A stretch of 44,161 bases of DNA from Fimbriimonas sp. (GTDB lineage: Bacteria > Armatimonadota > Fimbriimonadia > Fimbriimonadales > Fimbriimonadaceae): positions 1 through 44,161 of the forward strand of contig JAUJNV010000008.1 in assembly GCA_030447945.1 (NCBI GenBank), written 5' to 3'. The notes under the pieces were generated by a model, which searched no databases, was not told the DNA's origin, and was given only the letters and a program-made list of their open reading frames with translations. This document shows positions 27,914 through 41,011 of the stretch, piece by piece. The position numbers and the translations under genes are program-made. Each line of letters opens with the position of its first letter. The stretch's first letter is position 1.

Positions 27914-28864
27914 ATGAAGCCGACCCATAAGAACTATCTCTCGACGCTGGGGCTAACGCTCGTCGTGCTGCTTGTGCTCGCGGTTCTCGCGGCCGTCCTT
28001 TTCCCCGTGTTCGCACAATCAAAGGAGGCCGCGAAGAAAACCTCGGCGCGGTCGGCGCGAAAGATGGCGCAGATGAACGGCGACCGGTCCCTCGTTGAGG
28101 AAAGTGGGGCGGCGACCCCGGTCCCGGGAGGGGCTCGACTCCATCCCGCCGTCTTCGTCCCGCAGCGCGAGGTCATTCGCGAGGCTTCGCTCGACGTTCG
28201 TGTTCCGAACGTGGAAGAGGCGGAGAGGAAGGTGAACGCCATCGTCGCCCGCCTTCGGGGCTACGTGGACAGCGCCAACAGCACGGACCTCGCCTCCGAC
28301 AGGCCGATGCTCATCGTGACCCTCCGGGTGCCGGTTGGAGCCTTCGATCGCGCGCTCGTGGAGTTCGAAGCGCTGGGCACGCGGCTGAGCAAGAGTGTTA
28401 AATCGGAAGACGTCACGGCCCAGATCGTCGACCTCGACGCGCGCCTGAAGACCAAGTCCGCGCAAGAGGAGACCTACCGAAGCCTCTTGAAGCAGGCTCG
28501 TAGCCTCGACAGCACGCTCCGGCTTCAAGACGAGTTGGAAAAGATTCGGAGCGAGGTGGAGAGCATGGCCGCTCAGCGAAAGACGATCGGGGGGCTGGCG
28601 GCGTTGTCGACGGTGGAGCTCACCCTTGGGCAAGAAGCGGTGCCTCACGCGGTTCCCGCTGACAAGAACTGGCTCGGACAGACCTGGGCGCAGGCAACGA
28701 CGTCCTTCGGAAGCGCGGCGCGCGCCGTGACCGTCGTTGCCACCTGGCTACTCGTCTTCTGCCCGTTCTGGATTCCCGCCGTGCTGGTGGTCCGCGCCCT
28801 GCTCCGAGCTTCGGCGCCGAAGCGGGTCGTATTAGCCCCACCCTCGGGCGATCCCTCACCATGA
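27914..28864 (+). CDS. DUF4349 protein, membrane-anchored copy
   Basis: 316 residues from ATG 27914. The N-terminal membrane segment (about residues 8-35) ends in LFPVFAQSKEAAKKTS. A DUF4349 domain follows: REVIREASLDVRVPNVEEAERKV, GGYVDSA-like RGYVDSANSTDL, RVPVGAFDRALVEFEALG, KSEDVTAQIVDLDARLKTK and a coiled coil with LLKQARSLDSTLRLQDELEKIRSEVE. A C-terminal membrane segment (WLLVFCPFWIPAVLVVRALL) completes it. Function is unknown; the family is an envelope protein with a central coiled coil. The next gene is a paralogue about 70 % identical over the core by eye. Confidence 0.85.
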   Translation: MKPTHKNYLSTLGLTLVVLLVLAVLAAVLFPVFAQSKEAAKKTSARSARKMAQMNGDRSLVEESGAATPVPGGARLHPAVFVPQREVIREASLDVRVPNVEEAERKVNAIVARLRGYVDSANSTDLASDRPMLIVTLRVPVGAFDRALVEFEALGTRLSKSVKSEDVTAQIVDLDARLKTKSAQEETYRSLLKQARSLDSTLRLQDELEKIRSEVESMAAQRKTIGGLAALSTVELTLGQEAVPHAVPADKNWLGQTWAQATTSFGSAARAVTVVATWLLVFCPFWIPAVLVVRALLRASAPKRVVLAPPSGDPSP

Positions 28865-28976: not shown

Positions 28977-29963
28977 ATGTTAGGGCAGAGACTGGCGATA
29001 GTCGGAGCGCTTTCCGCGCTGACTCTCATTTCTGGATGCAGTAAAGCCGAGGAGAGCGCGGACTACGGCAGCGCAACGGCGGGGGGAACATTAGGTCAGG
29101 AGATGAAAGCGGCCAGTGGACCGCTGTCAGGGGCCACCGATGCAACGCAAGCAGGTGGCCCACCAGCAGAAAAGACGGGCGCGGCGCGCTCCGGCTCTCC
29201 TCAGGCCAAAGTCACCAACGCGTCCTACATCCCTCAGCGCCAGGTTATCCGGAAGGCATCCGTTAGCGTGCGCGTGAAGAGCGTCGAGGCGGCCGAGAAG
29301 ACGGTCAACAGGATTGTCGCCCGCTTGGGGGGATACGTGGACAGCGCGACGAGCACCGACCTCTCTTCGACCAAGCCGGTCATCTCCATTACCCTACGGG
29401 TACCTGTGCAGAGCTTCGATCAGTCGCTGGCCGAGTTCGAGGCGCTGGGCAGTCGGCTGAGCAAGACCATCGAATCGGAAGACGTTACGGGGCAGCTCGT
29501 CGACCTGGAGGCGCGGCTGAAGACGAAGCTCGCGCAGGAGGAGACGTACCGGAACCTCCTGAAGCAGTCGCGGAGCCTCGACAGCACGATCCGGCTCCAG
29601 GACGAGTTGGAGAGCGTCCGCAGCGAGATTGAGAGCATGGCGGCCCAGCGAAAGACCATGGCGGGTCTCGCGGCCCTCTCGACGATCACTCTGACGCTGG
29701 AGCAGTCGGGCGTGCCCGCAGCGGTTCCGGCGGACAAGAACTGGTTCGCCGAAAGCTGGGCCGACACGACCACCTCGGTCGGCGGGTTCTTCCGGTGGCT
29801 GGTCGTCGCGGGGATGTGGGCGCTGCTGCTGAGCCCGTTCTGGATCGCCGCTCTCCTCGCCCTCCGCGCCGCCGCCCGGGCGTCGGCGCCGAAGCGGCCG
29901 GTGCCTCCGCCCTATCAACCGCATGCCGCGCCCGAGCCACCGCCTTACCAGCCGCCGGCGTAG
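28977..29963 (+). CDS. DUF4349 protein, lipoprotein copy
   Basis: 328 residues, with AGGAGG upstream of ATG 28977. The signal peptide ends in lipobox LISGC (Cys21), unlike the transmembrane anchor of the upstream paralogue. A Gly/Ala/Ser-rich linker to about residue 80 precedes the DUF4349 core (RQVIRKASVSVRVKSVEAAEK, GGYVDSATSTDLSS, IESEDVTGQLVDLEARL) and coiled coil (SLDSTIRLQDELESVRSEIE). A C-terminal membrane helix (WLVVAGMWALLLSPFWIAALLAL) ends in a Pro-rich tail with repeated PPYQP. The two copies are in tandem with a 112-bp gap. Confidence 0.88.
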   Translation: MLGQRLAIVGALSALTLISGCSKAEESADYGSATAGGTLGQEMKAASGPLSGATDATQAGGPPAEKTGAARSGSPQAKVTNASYIPQRQVIRKASVSVRVKSVEAAEKTVNRIVARLGGYVDSATSTDLSSTKPVISITLRVPVQSFDQSLAEFEALGSRLSKTIESEDVTGQLVDLEARLKTKLAQEETYRNLLKQSRSLDSTIRLQDELESVRSEIESMAAQRKTMAGLAALSTITLTLEQSGVPAAVPADKNWFAESWADTTTSVGGFFRWLVVAGMWALLLSPFWIAALLALRAAARASAPKRPVPPPYQPHAAPEPPPYQPPA

Positions 29964-37309: not shown

Positions 37310-38640
37310 ATGCCCTACATTCCCCATACCGACGCCGATCGCGAGGAGATGCTCGCCCGGATTGGCGCTCTCTTCTATCGACGACCTTTTTCGGGAGATC
37401 CCGGAGAACCTGCGGGTGAAGGGCGAGCTCGACCTGCCGCCCGCCCTCGACGAGGCCCGGCTCATGGCGCACCTGGCCGAGATCGTAGGCCGCATGAACG
37501 TGAGCATGGCCGACGTGGTCTGCTTCTTCGGGCATGGCGCGTACGACCGCTACATCCTCCACCGTGGGCGCGGTGATTTCGCGCGGCGAGTTCCTCACCG
37601 CTTACACGCCGTACCAGCCGGAGGAGAGTCAGGGCGACTTCCAGACGATCTACGAGTTTCAGAGCATGGTCGCCGAGCTCTACGGCACGGACATTGCGAA
37701 CGCTTCGATGTACGACGGCGCGACCTCGATGGCCGAGGCGGCGATCATGGCGAACGGCGTAAACGGGCGGCCCAAGACCTTCGTCAGCGGCGCGGTCCAC
37801 CCCACTACCGGCGTGTGCTCGATACCTACCTGTGGTCGATGCAGCTCGGCGGAGACGCTTCCCGCGACCTGCGGGGCGACAGACGACTTCGACGCGGTCG
37901 ACGAGTCCGCCGCCTGCGTGATCGTCCAGTATCCCAACTTCGGGAACCTGGAGGACCTGAATCGGGCGCGCGAGGCCGCGCGTCGGACCGGGGCGCTGTT
38001 CATCGTCGTGGCCGATCCCGTCGCCTGCGCGCTGGTGCGGCCGCCTGGCGAGTTCGACGCGGATGTGGTGGTCGGCGAGGGTCAGCCGATGGGCATTGCG
38101 ATGGGCTTTGGCGGGCCGCTGCTGGGGCTGTTCGCCTGCAAGTCAGAGTTCGTGCGGCGGATTCCCGGCCGTATCGTCGGGCGCACCAAGGAGGCGCACG
38201 GGGAGCGGGAAGGGTACGTGATGACCCTGCGCACCCGCGAGCAGGACATCCGGCGCGAGAAGGCGACCTCGAACATCTGCACCAACCAGGCGCTCATGGC
38301 GCTCGCTTCGACCGTTTACATGAGCGCCTTGGGCAAGAACGGCATGCGCCAAGTGGCCGAGGCGACGGTGCGAAACACGCAATACGCCCTCGGCAAGCTG
38401 AAGGAGGCCGGGGCACGTCGGCGGTTCGACGGCAAGGTCTTTGGTGAGTTCACGCTGGAACTGCCGAGAAACGCGGCCGAAGTTCGGGACCGCCTGCTGG
38501 AGCAGGGCATTCTGGCGGGACTACCACTGGGGACGTACTACGAAGGGATGGAGAACTGCCTCTTGGTGGCGGTGACCGAACTTCGTACGAGAGAGCAGAT
38601 CGACGACTTTTCGGAGAAGCTGCGAGCCGTTCTCAGGTAG
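37310..38640 (+). CDS. gcvPA: Glycine dehydrogenase (decarboxylating) subunit 1
   Basis: Starts MPYIPHTDADREEMLARIG at ATG 37310. Joined frames give about 443 residues: [100 protein letters not shown]. The uninterrupted 3' half contains VIVQYPNFGNLEDL, GMGFGGPLLG-like AMGFGGPLLGLFACK and REKATSNICTNQALMALASTVYMS. It is the N-terminal half of the PLP-dependent P protein; it forms a complex with GcvPB. Frame changes lie near 37370, 37555, 37815 and 37860. Confidence 0.93.
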
Positions 38641-38649
38641 GCACACCGC

Positions 38650-38684
38650 TGACATGGCACGGGCGTCCCGCCCGTGCCATGTCA
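38650..38684. repeat. Perfect REP-like palindrome between gcvPA and gcvPB
   Basis: TGACATGGCACGGGCG and CGCCCGTGCCATGTCA form 16-bp perfect arms with a 3-nt loop, 10 nt past the gcvPA stop and 29 nt before gcvPB. Its core GCACGGGCGTCCCGCCCGTG is identical to the left tip of the element inside gcvPB at 39631. Confidence 0.75.
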
Positions 38685-38712: not shown

Positions 38713-40362
38713 ATGCCCACGAAGACCGTTCCGTCACCTCAGCTCATCTTTGAGAAGTCGCGCGCCGGGCGCATCGGGTGCAACGTTCCCGCCTGCGATA
38801 CGCCGGAAGTGGACCTCGATAAGGCACTAGGCGGCACGCGCCAGAGCCTCGACCTCCCCGAAATTGCGGAGCTCGACGTCATGCGGCACTTCGTGAATTT
38901 GAGCCACATCAACTACGGCATCGAGACGGGCTTTTACCCCCTCGGCTCCTGCACGATGAAGTACAACCCGCGGATCAACGAGGCCACCGCCTCGCTGCCC
39001 GGGTTCGCGCGGCTCCACCCGATGCAGCCGGTCGAGTCGGTCCCGGGCGCCCTCGAGATTCTCGCCGGCGTGCAGGAGATGCTGCAGGAGATCACCGGCT
39101 TCGACCTCATCACGCTCCAACCTCTCGCGGGCGCGCACGGCGAACTGACGTGCCTCATGCTCATCCGTGCCTACCACGAGTCGCGCGGGGAGGGGGAGCA
39201 GCGAACAGTGGTCTTGGTCCCTGACTCCGCCCACGGCACCAACCCGGCCTCGGCCGCGCGCTGCGGCTATACGGTGCGCTCGATCCCCACCGACCCCGAC
39301 GGCAACACCGATCTGGCGGCGCTGGAAAGGGCTCTGGACGACAAGGTCGCGGCGCTCATGCTCACGAACCCTTCGACGCTGGGCCTTTTCGAGCCGAACA
39401 TCGAACGGATCTGCCGGTTGGTGCACGACGCGGGCGGGCAGGTGTTTTGCGACGGCGCGAACATGAACGCGATGGTCGGCACCACCCGGCCCGGCGACCA
39501 CGGCTTCGACTGCATGCACCTGAACCTCCACAAGACTTTCTCCACCCCCCACGGCGGCGGCGGCCCCGGCTGCGGCGCCATCGGCCTCCAGACCCACCTA
39601 GACCCTTTCCTGCCAGTTCCCGTGATCCGCCGTAGCACGGGCGTCCCGCCCGTGGGTCCCGGGGCCGTCCCGGCCCCGTCTCCGGAAGAAGGCCCCGGGA
39701 CCCACGGGCCGGACGCCCGTGCCACGGTTGTGGCGGATTATGACCGGCCGCGGTCGATTGGGCGGGTGTCGCCGTTTTATGGGCAGTTTCTGATGGAGGT
39801 CCGTGCCTATACCTATCTCCGCGCGTACGGCAAGGAGAAGATGGCCGATATTTCGCGCCACGCGGTGCTCAATGCGAACTACGTCCAGGCGCGGCTGAGG
39901 GAAGTGCTCCCGCCAGCCCATGACCGGCCCGCCATGCACGAGTGCGTGCTGACGGCGGAGAAGTACAAGAAGGAGCATGGAGTGCGGGCACTGGACATCA
40001 GCAAGCGGCTCATCGACTACGGCTTCCACCCGCCGACCAACTACTTCCCGCTGATCGTCCCCGAGGCGCTCATGATCGAGCCGACGGAGACGGAAGGGAA
40101 GGAGACCCTCGATGCCTTCTGCGACGCGATGATCTCCATCTGCCGAGAGGCCCAGGAGGACCCGGAGCTTCTGCACGAAGCGCCGACCACCCAGATCGTG
40201 GGGCGGCTCGACGAGACCGCCGCGGTCAAGAGCCTCGATGTCCGTTGGAAGCGGTGCGGCGACATCGAGGTGGGCGCGGCCGCCCCGAAGAACAACCGGG
40301 AGGTTGCTCACGGTGAAGGGTTCGACGGTCAACGTGTAGACGAAGTCGCGAAGGCCGTCTGA
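38713..40362 (+). CDS. gcvPB: Glycine dehydrogenase (decarboxylating) subunit 2, with in-frame repeat insert
   Basis: 549 residues, one open frame. It has the conserved TGFYPLGSCTMKYNPR-type segment (IETGFYPLGSCTMKYNP), QPLAGAHGELTCLMLIRAYH, SAHGTNPASAARCGY and GQVFCDGANMNAM. The PLP Lys is residue 274 in MHLNLHKTFSTPHGGGGPG. The usual DYDRPRSIGRVSPFYGQF follows. GcvPB proteins are about 480-500 residues; this one is longer because about 31 residues (308-338, STGVPPVGP...GPDARAT) are encoded by a palindromic repeat between PFLPVPVI and ADYDRP. With GcvPA it decarboxylates glycine. It ends 1 nt before the lipoate-ligase-family gene. Confidence 0.96.
   Translation: MPTKTVPSPQLIFEKSRAGRIGCNVPACDTPEVDLDKALGGTRQSLDLPEIAELDVMRHFVNLSHINYGIETGFYPLGSCTMKYNPRINEATASLPGFARLHPMQPVESVPGALEILAGVQEMLQEITGFDLITLQPLAGAHGELTCLMLIRAYHESRGEGEQRTVVLVPDSAHGTNPASAARCGYTVRSIPTDPDGNTDLAALERALDDKVAALMLTNPSTLGLFEPNIERICRLVHDAGGQVFCDGANMNAMVGTTRPGDHGFDCMHLNLHKTFSTPHGGGGPGCGAIGLQTHLDPFLPVPVIRRSTGVPPVGPGAVPAPSPEEGPGTHGPDARATVVADYDRPRSIGRVSPFYGQFLMEVRAYTYLRAYGKEKMADISRHAVLNANYVQARLREVLPPAHDRPAMHECVLTAEKYKKEHGVRALDISKRLIDYGFHPPTNYFPLIVPEALMIEPTETEGKETLDAFCDAMISICREAQEDPELLHEAPTTQIVGRLDETAAVKSLDVRWKRCGDIEVGAAAPKNNREVAHGEGFDGQRVDEVAKAV
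39631..39726. repeat. Long REP-like palindrome inserted in frame in gcvPB
   Basis: 36-nt arms 39631-39666 and 39691-39726 are reverse complements at 34 of 36 positions, with a 24-nt middle that begins its own small stem (GGGGCC gtccc GGCCCC). The left arm starts CGTAGCACGGGCGTCCCGCC, sharing its core with the palindrome at 38650. Its length (96 nt) is a multiple of three and it has no stop in the used frame, so the host gene stays open. Confidence 0.85.
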
Positions 40363-40363
40363 A

Positions 40364-41011
40364 GTGCGGATCGCGCGGGAAGGACCCGCCGACGGCCCGA
40401 GCAACATGTCCCGCGATCAGATTCTGCTCGACAGGGCGGAGCGAGGGGAAGCCGGCTGCCGCGTCTACTCGTGGGGCGCTCCTTGGGTAACTCTGGGCCG
40501 CTACCAGAGCCCGGAACGCGACCTCTGTTCATCGGCCGACACGTCCTGGGTCATCCGGCCGACCGGCGGAAAGGCCGTCCTTCACGGGCACGACATCACG
40601 GTCGGGCTGGCCGTGCCTCTGAACCGGTTCAGCGGTCTGCGCTCGATCAAGTCGATCTACCCGGCCGTCGTGGCCCCATTGGTGAATGCGCTGCGCGCGT
40701 GCGACGTTCCCGCTGCCCTCGCCGAGGAGACACCCCACGCAGGGAAGGGGCAGCGCACCGCAGATTGCTTCGCCCATGTCTCGCCGAACGACGTCGTGGA
40801 CGTGCGCAGTGGTAAGAAAGTCTGCGGCTGCGCGCTTCGCGTGACTCAGACGGCGGTGCTCGTTCAGGCCAGCCTTCCCTATCGTTCACCGATTCTTGAT
40901 CCGGCTTCGGTGATGCGAAACGCGGAGAGCGCGCCGGTGGTTCCGTGGGATCCGACGGGATTTGGCGACGCTCTTGAAGAGGCTATCGCGTCCTGTATTC
41001 AATGGGAATAG
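40364..41011 (+). CDS. Lipoate-protein ligase A / octanoyltransferase family protein
   Basis: 215 residues from GTG 40364, one base after the gcvPB stop. The BPL/LplA fold motifs are CRVYSWGAPWVTLGRYQ, WVIRPTGGKAVLHGHDITVGLAVPL (substrate-binding RRxTGGxAVxH box), DCFAHVSPNDVVDV and GKKVCGCALRVTQTAVLVQASL, whose first Lys is the usual lipoyl-AMP contact. Family members attach lipoate or octanoate to lipoyl domains. The position directly after gcvPB points to GcvH as substrate. It is shorter than E. coli LplA (no C-terminal accessory domain), so it could be a LipM-type octanoyltransferase. Confidence 0.85.
   Translation: MRIAREGPADGPSNMSRDQILLDRAERGEAGCRVYSWGAPWVTLGRYQSPERDLCSSADTSWVIRPTGGKAVLHGHDITVGLAVPLNRFSGLRSIKSIYPAVVAPLVNALRACDVPAALAEETPHAGKGQRTADCFAHVSPNDVVDVRSGKKVCGCALRVTQTAVLVQASLPYRSPILDPASVMRNAESAPVVPWDPTGFGDALEEAIASCIQWE

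Follow-up and report, generated by a model that had tools for sequence, protein, structure and literature searches.

An in-frame REP dimer in gcvPB of a Fimbriimonas genome, and REP and RAYT sequences inside other bacterial genes

REPs of the GTAG superfamily, their head-to-head dimers, the GTGG tags of O. terrae and the occurrence of REPs inside genes were described in 2013 (Di Nocera et al., PMC3733652), in a paper whose passages on intragenic copies state that REPs and REP dimers encode 20-30 residues, suggest loops and linkers as their sites, and relate intragenic repeats of R. conorii to RPE-4 and RPE-6. GTAG repeats are listed there for Proteobacteria, Cyanobacteria, Chloroflexi and PVC, and target ORFs in its Additional file 3; its main text has 0 occurrences of "armatimon", and its passages on intragenic REPs make no mention of gcvPB. 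REPs in general are described as mostly intergenic (PMC8266576). No report of REPs in Armatimonadota was found among the titles and abstracts listed in searches of the openly licensed literature. The gcvPB insert analyzed here is of a kind already known since 2013, going by the passages of PMC3733652 on intragenic REP dimers: it shares with those GTAG REPs the GTAG/GTGG tag, the short GC-rich stem, the dimeric arrangement, the spacer with complementary ends, the intragenic position and a coding contribution of 20-30 residues, but it belongs to Armatimonadota, outside the phyla listed there. With the REPIN/BIME and RAYT systems it has in common two inverted REPs, an asymmetric tag and, at one locus of a related genome (L175), REPs of the same family on both sides of a RAYT-like gene, whereas the dimer lies in frame within a conserved enzyme and not, as most REPs in the passages of PMC8266576, between genes. 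Rickettsia palindromic elements (RPE), compared by description only, belong to another lineage.

The window, i.e. the whole stretch of 44,161 nucleotides that was analyzed, contains the following features around the insert:

37534..38640, + strand: gcvPA, P-protein subunit 1, the upstream partner (Pfam GDC-P, 4e-98)
38650..38684, no strand assigned: 35-nt hairpin with a 16-bp perfect stem in the gcvPA-gcvPB spacer, a REP core without the GTRG tag (from sequence)
38713..40362, + strand: gcvPB (549 aa), coding for subunit 2 of glycine dehydrogenase (P-protein), with the in-frame insert (ORF; Pfam GDC-P, Aminotran_5 and GcvP2_C)
39632..39725, + strand: head-to-head REP dimer (REPIN/BIME), GTAG...CCAC, 94 nt (inverted-repeat search, fold and sequence)
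39632..39654, + strand: REP 1, GTAG followed by CACGGGCGTCCCGCCCGTG, the core common to 16/291 Armatimonadota genomes
39634..39726, + strand: codons for inserted residues 308-338, STGVPPV...DARAT (translation and alignment)
39655..39702, + strand: 48-nt spacer, its first 12 nt and last 12 nt perfectly complementary (from sequence)
39703..39725, - strand: REP 2, inverted, GTGG followed by CACGGGCGTCCGGCCCGTG, with 1 mismatch to the core (from sequence)
40364..41011, + strand: lipoate-protein ligase-like gene, downstream (Pfam LplA-B_cat, 7e-14)

The near-perfect hairpin that the first-pass annotation had seen in gcvPB is reproduced exactly, with 34/36 positions pairing between the arms 39631-39666 and 39691-39726 around a 24-nt loop. 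When loops of 6-60 nt are scanned, it is the top 36-nt hairpin of the window; the runner-up outside 39600-39760 pairs at 28/36 positions, and the maximum in ten order-1 Markov resamples is 25/36. An inverted-repeat search returns 40-nt arms that are 93% complementary, and the RNA fold of 39600-39760 reaches -112.5 kcal/mol (z -8.8; 0/200 shuffles as low). The host bases ATCCGCC (39625-39631) and GGCGGAT (39732-39738) are complementary too, and lengthen the predicted stem around the dimer. Rfam, at its gathering thresholds, reports a single tRNA and nothing else.

The same annotation had taken the palindrome for a REP-like element of 96 nt. Its nature is borne out, since it is a tagged REP dimer, and its hairpin arms stand as described; the element proper spans 94 nt at 39632-39725. 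An inverse pair of REPs joined by a short linker (GTAG-core-48 nt-core'-CCAC) is the arrangement of REPINs and BIMEs. REPs of the GTAG superfamily are marked by a conserved tetranucleotide (GTAG/GTRG) that borders a short imperfect palindrome at one end, as seen in both REPs of the dimer and in most of the copies examined in related genomes. The target-site duplication that, with terminal inverted repeats, defines a classical MITE is not apparent: by eye, the sequences beside 39632-39725, GATCCGCC and GGTTGTGG, show no direct repeat. As to the untagged hairpin at 38650-38684, it may act on the transcript.

The gcvPB frame, apparently that of an intact core enzyme, is stop-free throughout 38713-40362, and the insert is read as STGVPPVGPGAVPAPSPEEGPGTHGPDARAT, residues 308-338, in agreement with the roughly 31 extra residues noticed at first. 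The closest relatives of this GcvPB are 71-80% identical, and the named matches include Fimbriimonas ginsengisoli, a Fimbriimonadaceae MAG, an Armatimonadetes MAG and one MAG labelled Chlorobia; these relatives place the contig with Fimbriimonadales/Armatimonadota. Among the best 120 of 7999 scored GcvPB matches (24 and 102 of the 120 being aligned in A1 and A2), the inserted segment occurs in the window protein alone (P0001), and a search with its region (P0001 302-344), a query too short for the database, returned only itself among 11 candidates. Between P303 and R345 the window protein has 41 residues; of those best 120 proteins, 63 have 14 and 38 have 15. Apart from the window protein, 11 of the 120 have at least 20 residues there, with sequences unlike the window insert, and none exceeds 48. 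Relative to the commonest loop, of 14 residues, the net gain is 27 residues or 81 nt, and the dimer has 94 nt, which implies replacement or loss of about 13 nt, provided that the ancestor carried a 14-residue loop. Alignment with relatives, proposed as a check on a clean insertion, confirms in this way a segment exclusive to P0001 among the best 120, but from the sequences compared a clean 96-nt in-frame insertion appears unsupported. Neither does the length divisible by three, which had been suggested as the selected property, describe the 94-nt dimer; the frame would have been kept along with the loss of some bases of target or element.

An AlphaFold model of GcvPB of moderate confidence (mean pLDDT 69.7) places the insert between the strands 304-307 and 339-342 of a beta-hairpin, with pLDDT <50 for residues 311-335. 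Thermus GcvPB (1wyu and 1wyt) provides the second and third fold matches of this model, and has a short turn at the insert position in the sequence alignment. The same loop holds differing inserts, some of them simple repeats, in other proteins and loci (P0004, P0032 and P0071; L084 and L097), among them an SD-coding repeat in L084, a GATCAC repeat in L097 and SNSSDSN in P0032. To judge from these sequences, the loop may be a hotspot of tolerated insertion. The first-pass idea of selection for a surface loop is therefore kept as regards a length-variable loop and dropped as regards selection, survivorship being the simpler account because the same loop took up other inserts.

The REP core was found in 16 of the 291 Armatimonadota genomes, in 146 copies by the sum of the table (reversed control, 0), with as many as 35 exact cores in one genome and a single core in 7/16. 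The tag was counted in 100 of the 146 exact cores, duplicates removed: GTRG stands directly 5' in 79, and the mirror tag CYAC 3' in 7. A wider tagged pattern gives 110 copies in G168, 39 in G172 and 33 in G177 (control, 0), related genomes in which the element is dispersed in many copies. REPs are sparse in the close relative sampled most, G124, and as the first 800 kb of its contig C1 proved REP-poor, the intragenic census was carried out on G168, G172 and G177. A RAYT is not recognizable in the 44,161-nt window (best tblastn E 0.25), and RAYT-like genes adjoin these REPs in L175 as well as in L382, L391 and L399. At L175 (G168; 852-2333, + strand), TetR, a REP, the RAYT and further REPs follow each other in one open frame; the RAYT-like gene scores 34.2 with Pfam Y1_Tnp (cut-off 23) and 69.3 bits with NCBIfam REP_Tyr_transpos, missing the cut-off of 80. 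A similar TetR with a REP at its C-terminus occurs in G172 (L181). Y1_Tnp is present in 14/16 core-bearing genomes versus 167/275 other Armatimonadota genomes, a weak association (Fisher p 0.035).

The suggestion that the same peptides and element occur in other phyla holds for two of those searched. The exact tagged 23-mer is present in 9/343 genomes of Planctomycetota and in 9/337 of Verrucomicrobiota, named as in GTDB, which we take to be the phylum of a Lentisphaeria genome (controls, 0 in both cases), and TGVPPV or RDAxAT peptides lie inside other proteins of these phyla. The 23-mer is absent from 350 Chloroflexota genomes (0/350; control, 0), and Chloroflexota were rejected as its source. 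One genome of Verrucomicrobiota (G736) contains 64 copies; all 11 of those listed carry the GTGG tag and lie on contig C1, in keeping with the text of PMC3733652 on O. terrae.

Clustering of the REPs of the 16 Armatimonadota genomes gave 147 sites, 17 of them with a flank too short to judge, and a codon model flags 14 as intragenic. Out of 104 ORFs spanning REP sites, 50 were scanned with Pfam, and all 14 codon-model sites were scanned too. In eight genes besides gcvPB, Pfam and NCBIfam support the host family on both sides of an in-frame REP:

L250: smc, in the hinge
L183: metG, between the anticodon and tRNA-binding domains
L363: 2-oxoacid dehydrogenase E2, between the lipoyl and E3-binding domains
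L276: zinc alcohol dehydrogenase (ADH)
L292: SAM hydroxide adenosyltransferase (SAM_HAT)
L304: gspF
L130: cheA, between the Hpt and dimerization domains, unflagged by the codon model
L172: CCG/LutA-like protein of G124, unflagged by the codon model

The remaining sites came without two-sided host support, many ORFs of the scanned subset being without any Pfam family. The search for further copies and their frame, proposed with the first-pass annotation, thus led to REPs in related genomes and to a single codon phase shared by gcvPB and these eight genes (9/9), the one that gives (S/G)TG(V/G)xPV or xDAxAT (p ~0.001, a value that counts open frames across the inserts: 2 of 4 in six cases and 2 of 5 in three). 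In the other phyla, the two-sided cases L406, L415, L382 and L391 are in this favoured phase, and L376 and L378 in another, for a total of 13/15 over all phyla (p 0.002 versus an assumed 0.47); the reverse reading of the metG core, which lacks the tag, and a second, opposite-strand REP match of L382, out of the favoured phase, were excluded from the count. As a rough contrast, the 20 ORFs that are one-sided or ambiguous, and whose REP stretch is possibly non-coding, divide into 10 wholly or mostly in the favoured phase and 10 out of it or mixed. The bias may reflect selection on the peptide or the survival of the less harmful phase. REPs, "extragenic" by name, repeatedly enter protein sequence in Armatimonadota, and a single codon phase offers a testable rule for intragenic REPs.

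Whole transposase genes were also found in such positions. From 96 candidate ORFs in other phyla, 20 were scanned with Pfam, and three ORFs run from a host gene through a REP and a RAYT and onward in one frame:

L382:3-2888, + strand: alanyl-tRNA synthetase, with Y1_Tnp between the catalytic and second additional domains (P0121/P0124)
L391:1-3021, - strand: valyl-tRNA synthetase-like gene with a RAYT; Pfam class I I/L/M/V (P0122)
L399:3-2915, + strand: FAD oxidoreductase domain upstream of the RAYT, without a recognized domain downstream (P0123)

The host of L391 would be ValRS in our own reading, which goes beyond the Pfam class I I/L/M/V family. In genome G342, the sole match to the AlaRS catalytic family is the cassette-bearing gene, open over 1209 codons with no stop. 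A protein search with the RAYT part of L382, covering proteins of ~530-1680 residues and 7992 candidates sharing most words, gave 968 matches at E <=1e-3. In 106 of the best 120 of these 968, the RAYT lies >120 residues from both ends, with a REP-type peptide on at least one side in 51/106 and on neither in 55/106. The same best 120 include as hosts, by Pfam and our reading, 13 AlaRS, 27 ValRS-type and 3 LeuRS-type proteins (alignment A3 covers 12 of 13 AlaRS-type proteins), and UvrA, R-M and other host proteins carry an in-frame RAYT too (P0124-P0243), such as the HsdR of Schlesneria sp. DSM 10557 (P0198), encoded on a 7.07-Mb contig. For the ValRS-type hosts, 24/27 share one insertion site by pattern and two more by eye, and one differs. 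An HUH-like motif is present in 116/120 of the best RAYT matches, and a strict tyrosine-motif pattern in 72/120. The model of the AlaRS-RAYT fusion is poor (pTM 0.30), with pLDDT 70-85 in the RAYT block and low-confidence linkers. The titles and abstracts listed in searches of the openly licensed literature included no report of a RAYT inside tRNA synthetases. The alaS gene of G124 (L431) has its AlaRS split into four Pfam segments, and the translated part contains in-frame inserts of a different repeat family, HPHPEPLPRQGGG x2 and TPNP(F/L)PTT x2.

Tentatively, and with doubt prevailing, REP/RAYT could be regarded in Armatimonadota, Planctomycetota and Verrucomicrobiota as a coding element with one open harmless phase, whose dimers and complete REP-RAYT-REP cassettes are translated inside essential enzymes and retained. 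Such cassettes would be guarded from loss because an inexact deletion kills the host, which, if true, would amount to an intein-like lifestyle without splicing. From their sequences, the embedded cassettes would resemble inteins in placing a mobile enzyme within an essential protein, and they differ in that their flanks, where recognized, are REP-encoded peptides. Transposase genes within essential enzymes raise the question of whether a mobile element can persist as part of an indispensable host protein.

Returning to gcvPB, what is observed directly is an inverted pair of tagged REPs in an uninterrupted frame and a segment that the 119 other GcvPB proteins compared do not have; the REP family itself is scattered over related genomes, and in one of them directly flanks a RAYT-like gene. 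The insert is very probably a REP dimer of the small, mobile and non-autonomous kind, which a Y1/HUH transposase of the RAYT (TnpA-REP) type would have brought into a length-variable beta-hairpin turn of GcvPB. Its ~31 residues would be translated and persist as a loop that is disordered and roughly neutral, and copies would last only where frame and site leave the enzyme unharmed. The best-surviving rival, itself unlikely, makes the dimer the deletion remnant of a whole in-frame REPtron (REP-RAYT-REP): whole in-frame REPtrons do exist in alaS and valS of Planctomycetota, and loss of the transposase between two REPs leaves a head-to-head dimer. However, REP dimers exist on their own and the 48-nt spacer, with its complementary ends, bears no RAYT trace; the stretch between P303 and R345 has <=48 residues in all 120 GcvPB, so none holds a RAYT there.

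The insert could otherwise be removed at translation. Mitochondrial byp elements are hairpins skipped by ribosomes, and a similar bypass of the mRNA hairpin, from the ACG of T309 to the ACG of T338, would give VIRRST-VVADYDRP, with a loop near normal length (12 vs 14 residues) and matching ACG codons at both ends. This we consider very improbable, as the palindrome itself accounts for the repeated ends, and the nine inserts are all stop-free in the host frame and in one phase, neither of which bypass needs. The relocated REP dimer is likewise preferred to a non-mobile slipped or locally duplicated GC-rich stretch, a simple-repeat expansion that the repeat-like contents of the same loop in relatives (L084, SD-rich; L097, GATCAC; P0032, SNSSDSN) would favour, but which has hardly any likelihood left, since the window insert is an inverted pair of tagged REPs whose core recurs in 16/291 related genomes and in other phyla, and slippage cannot yield dispersed tagged copies. 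An assembly artefact at a repeat, for which a single metagenome contig with the REP core again 1 kb upstream might speak, has just as little, given that both flanks belong to the same gcvPB in exact frame and that same-phase in-frame REPs occur in three separately assembled genomes (G124, G168 and G172).

Elsewhere in the window, a direct repeat of 300 nt (28153-28452 and 29225-29524; 73% identical, spacing 1072) probably corresponds to tandem paralogous genes.
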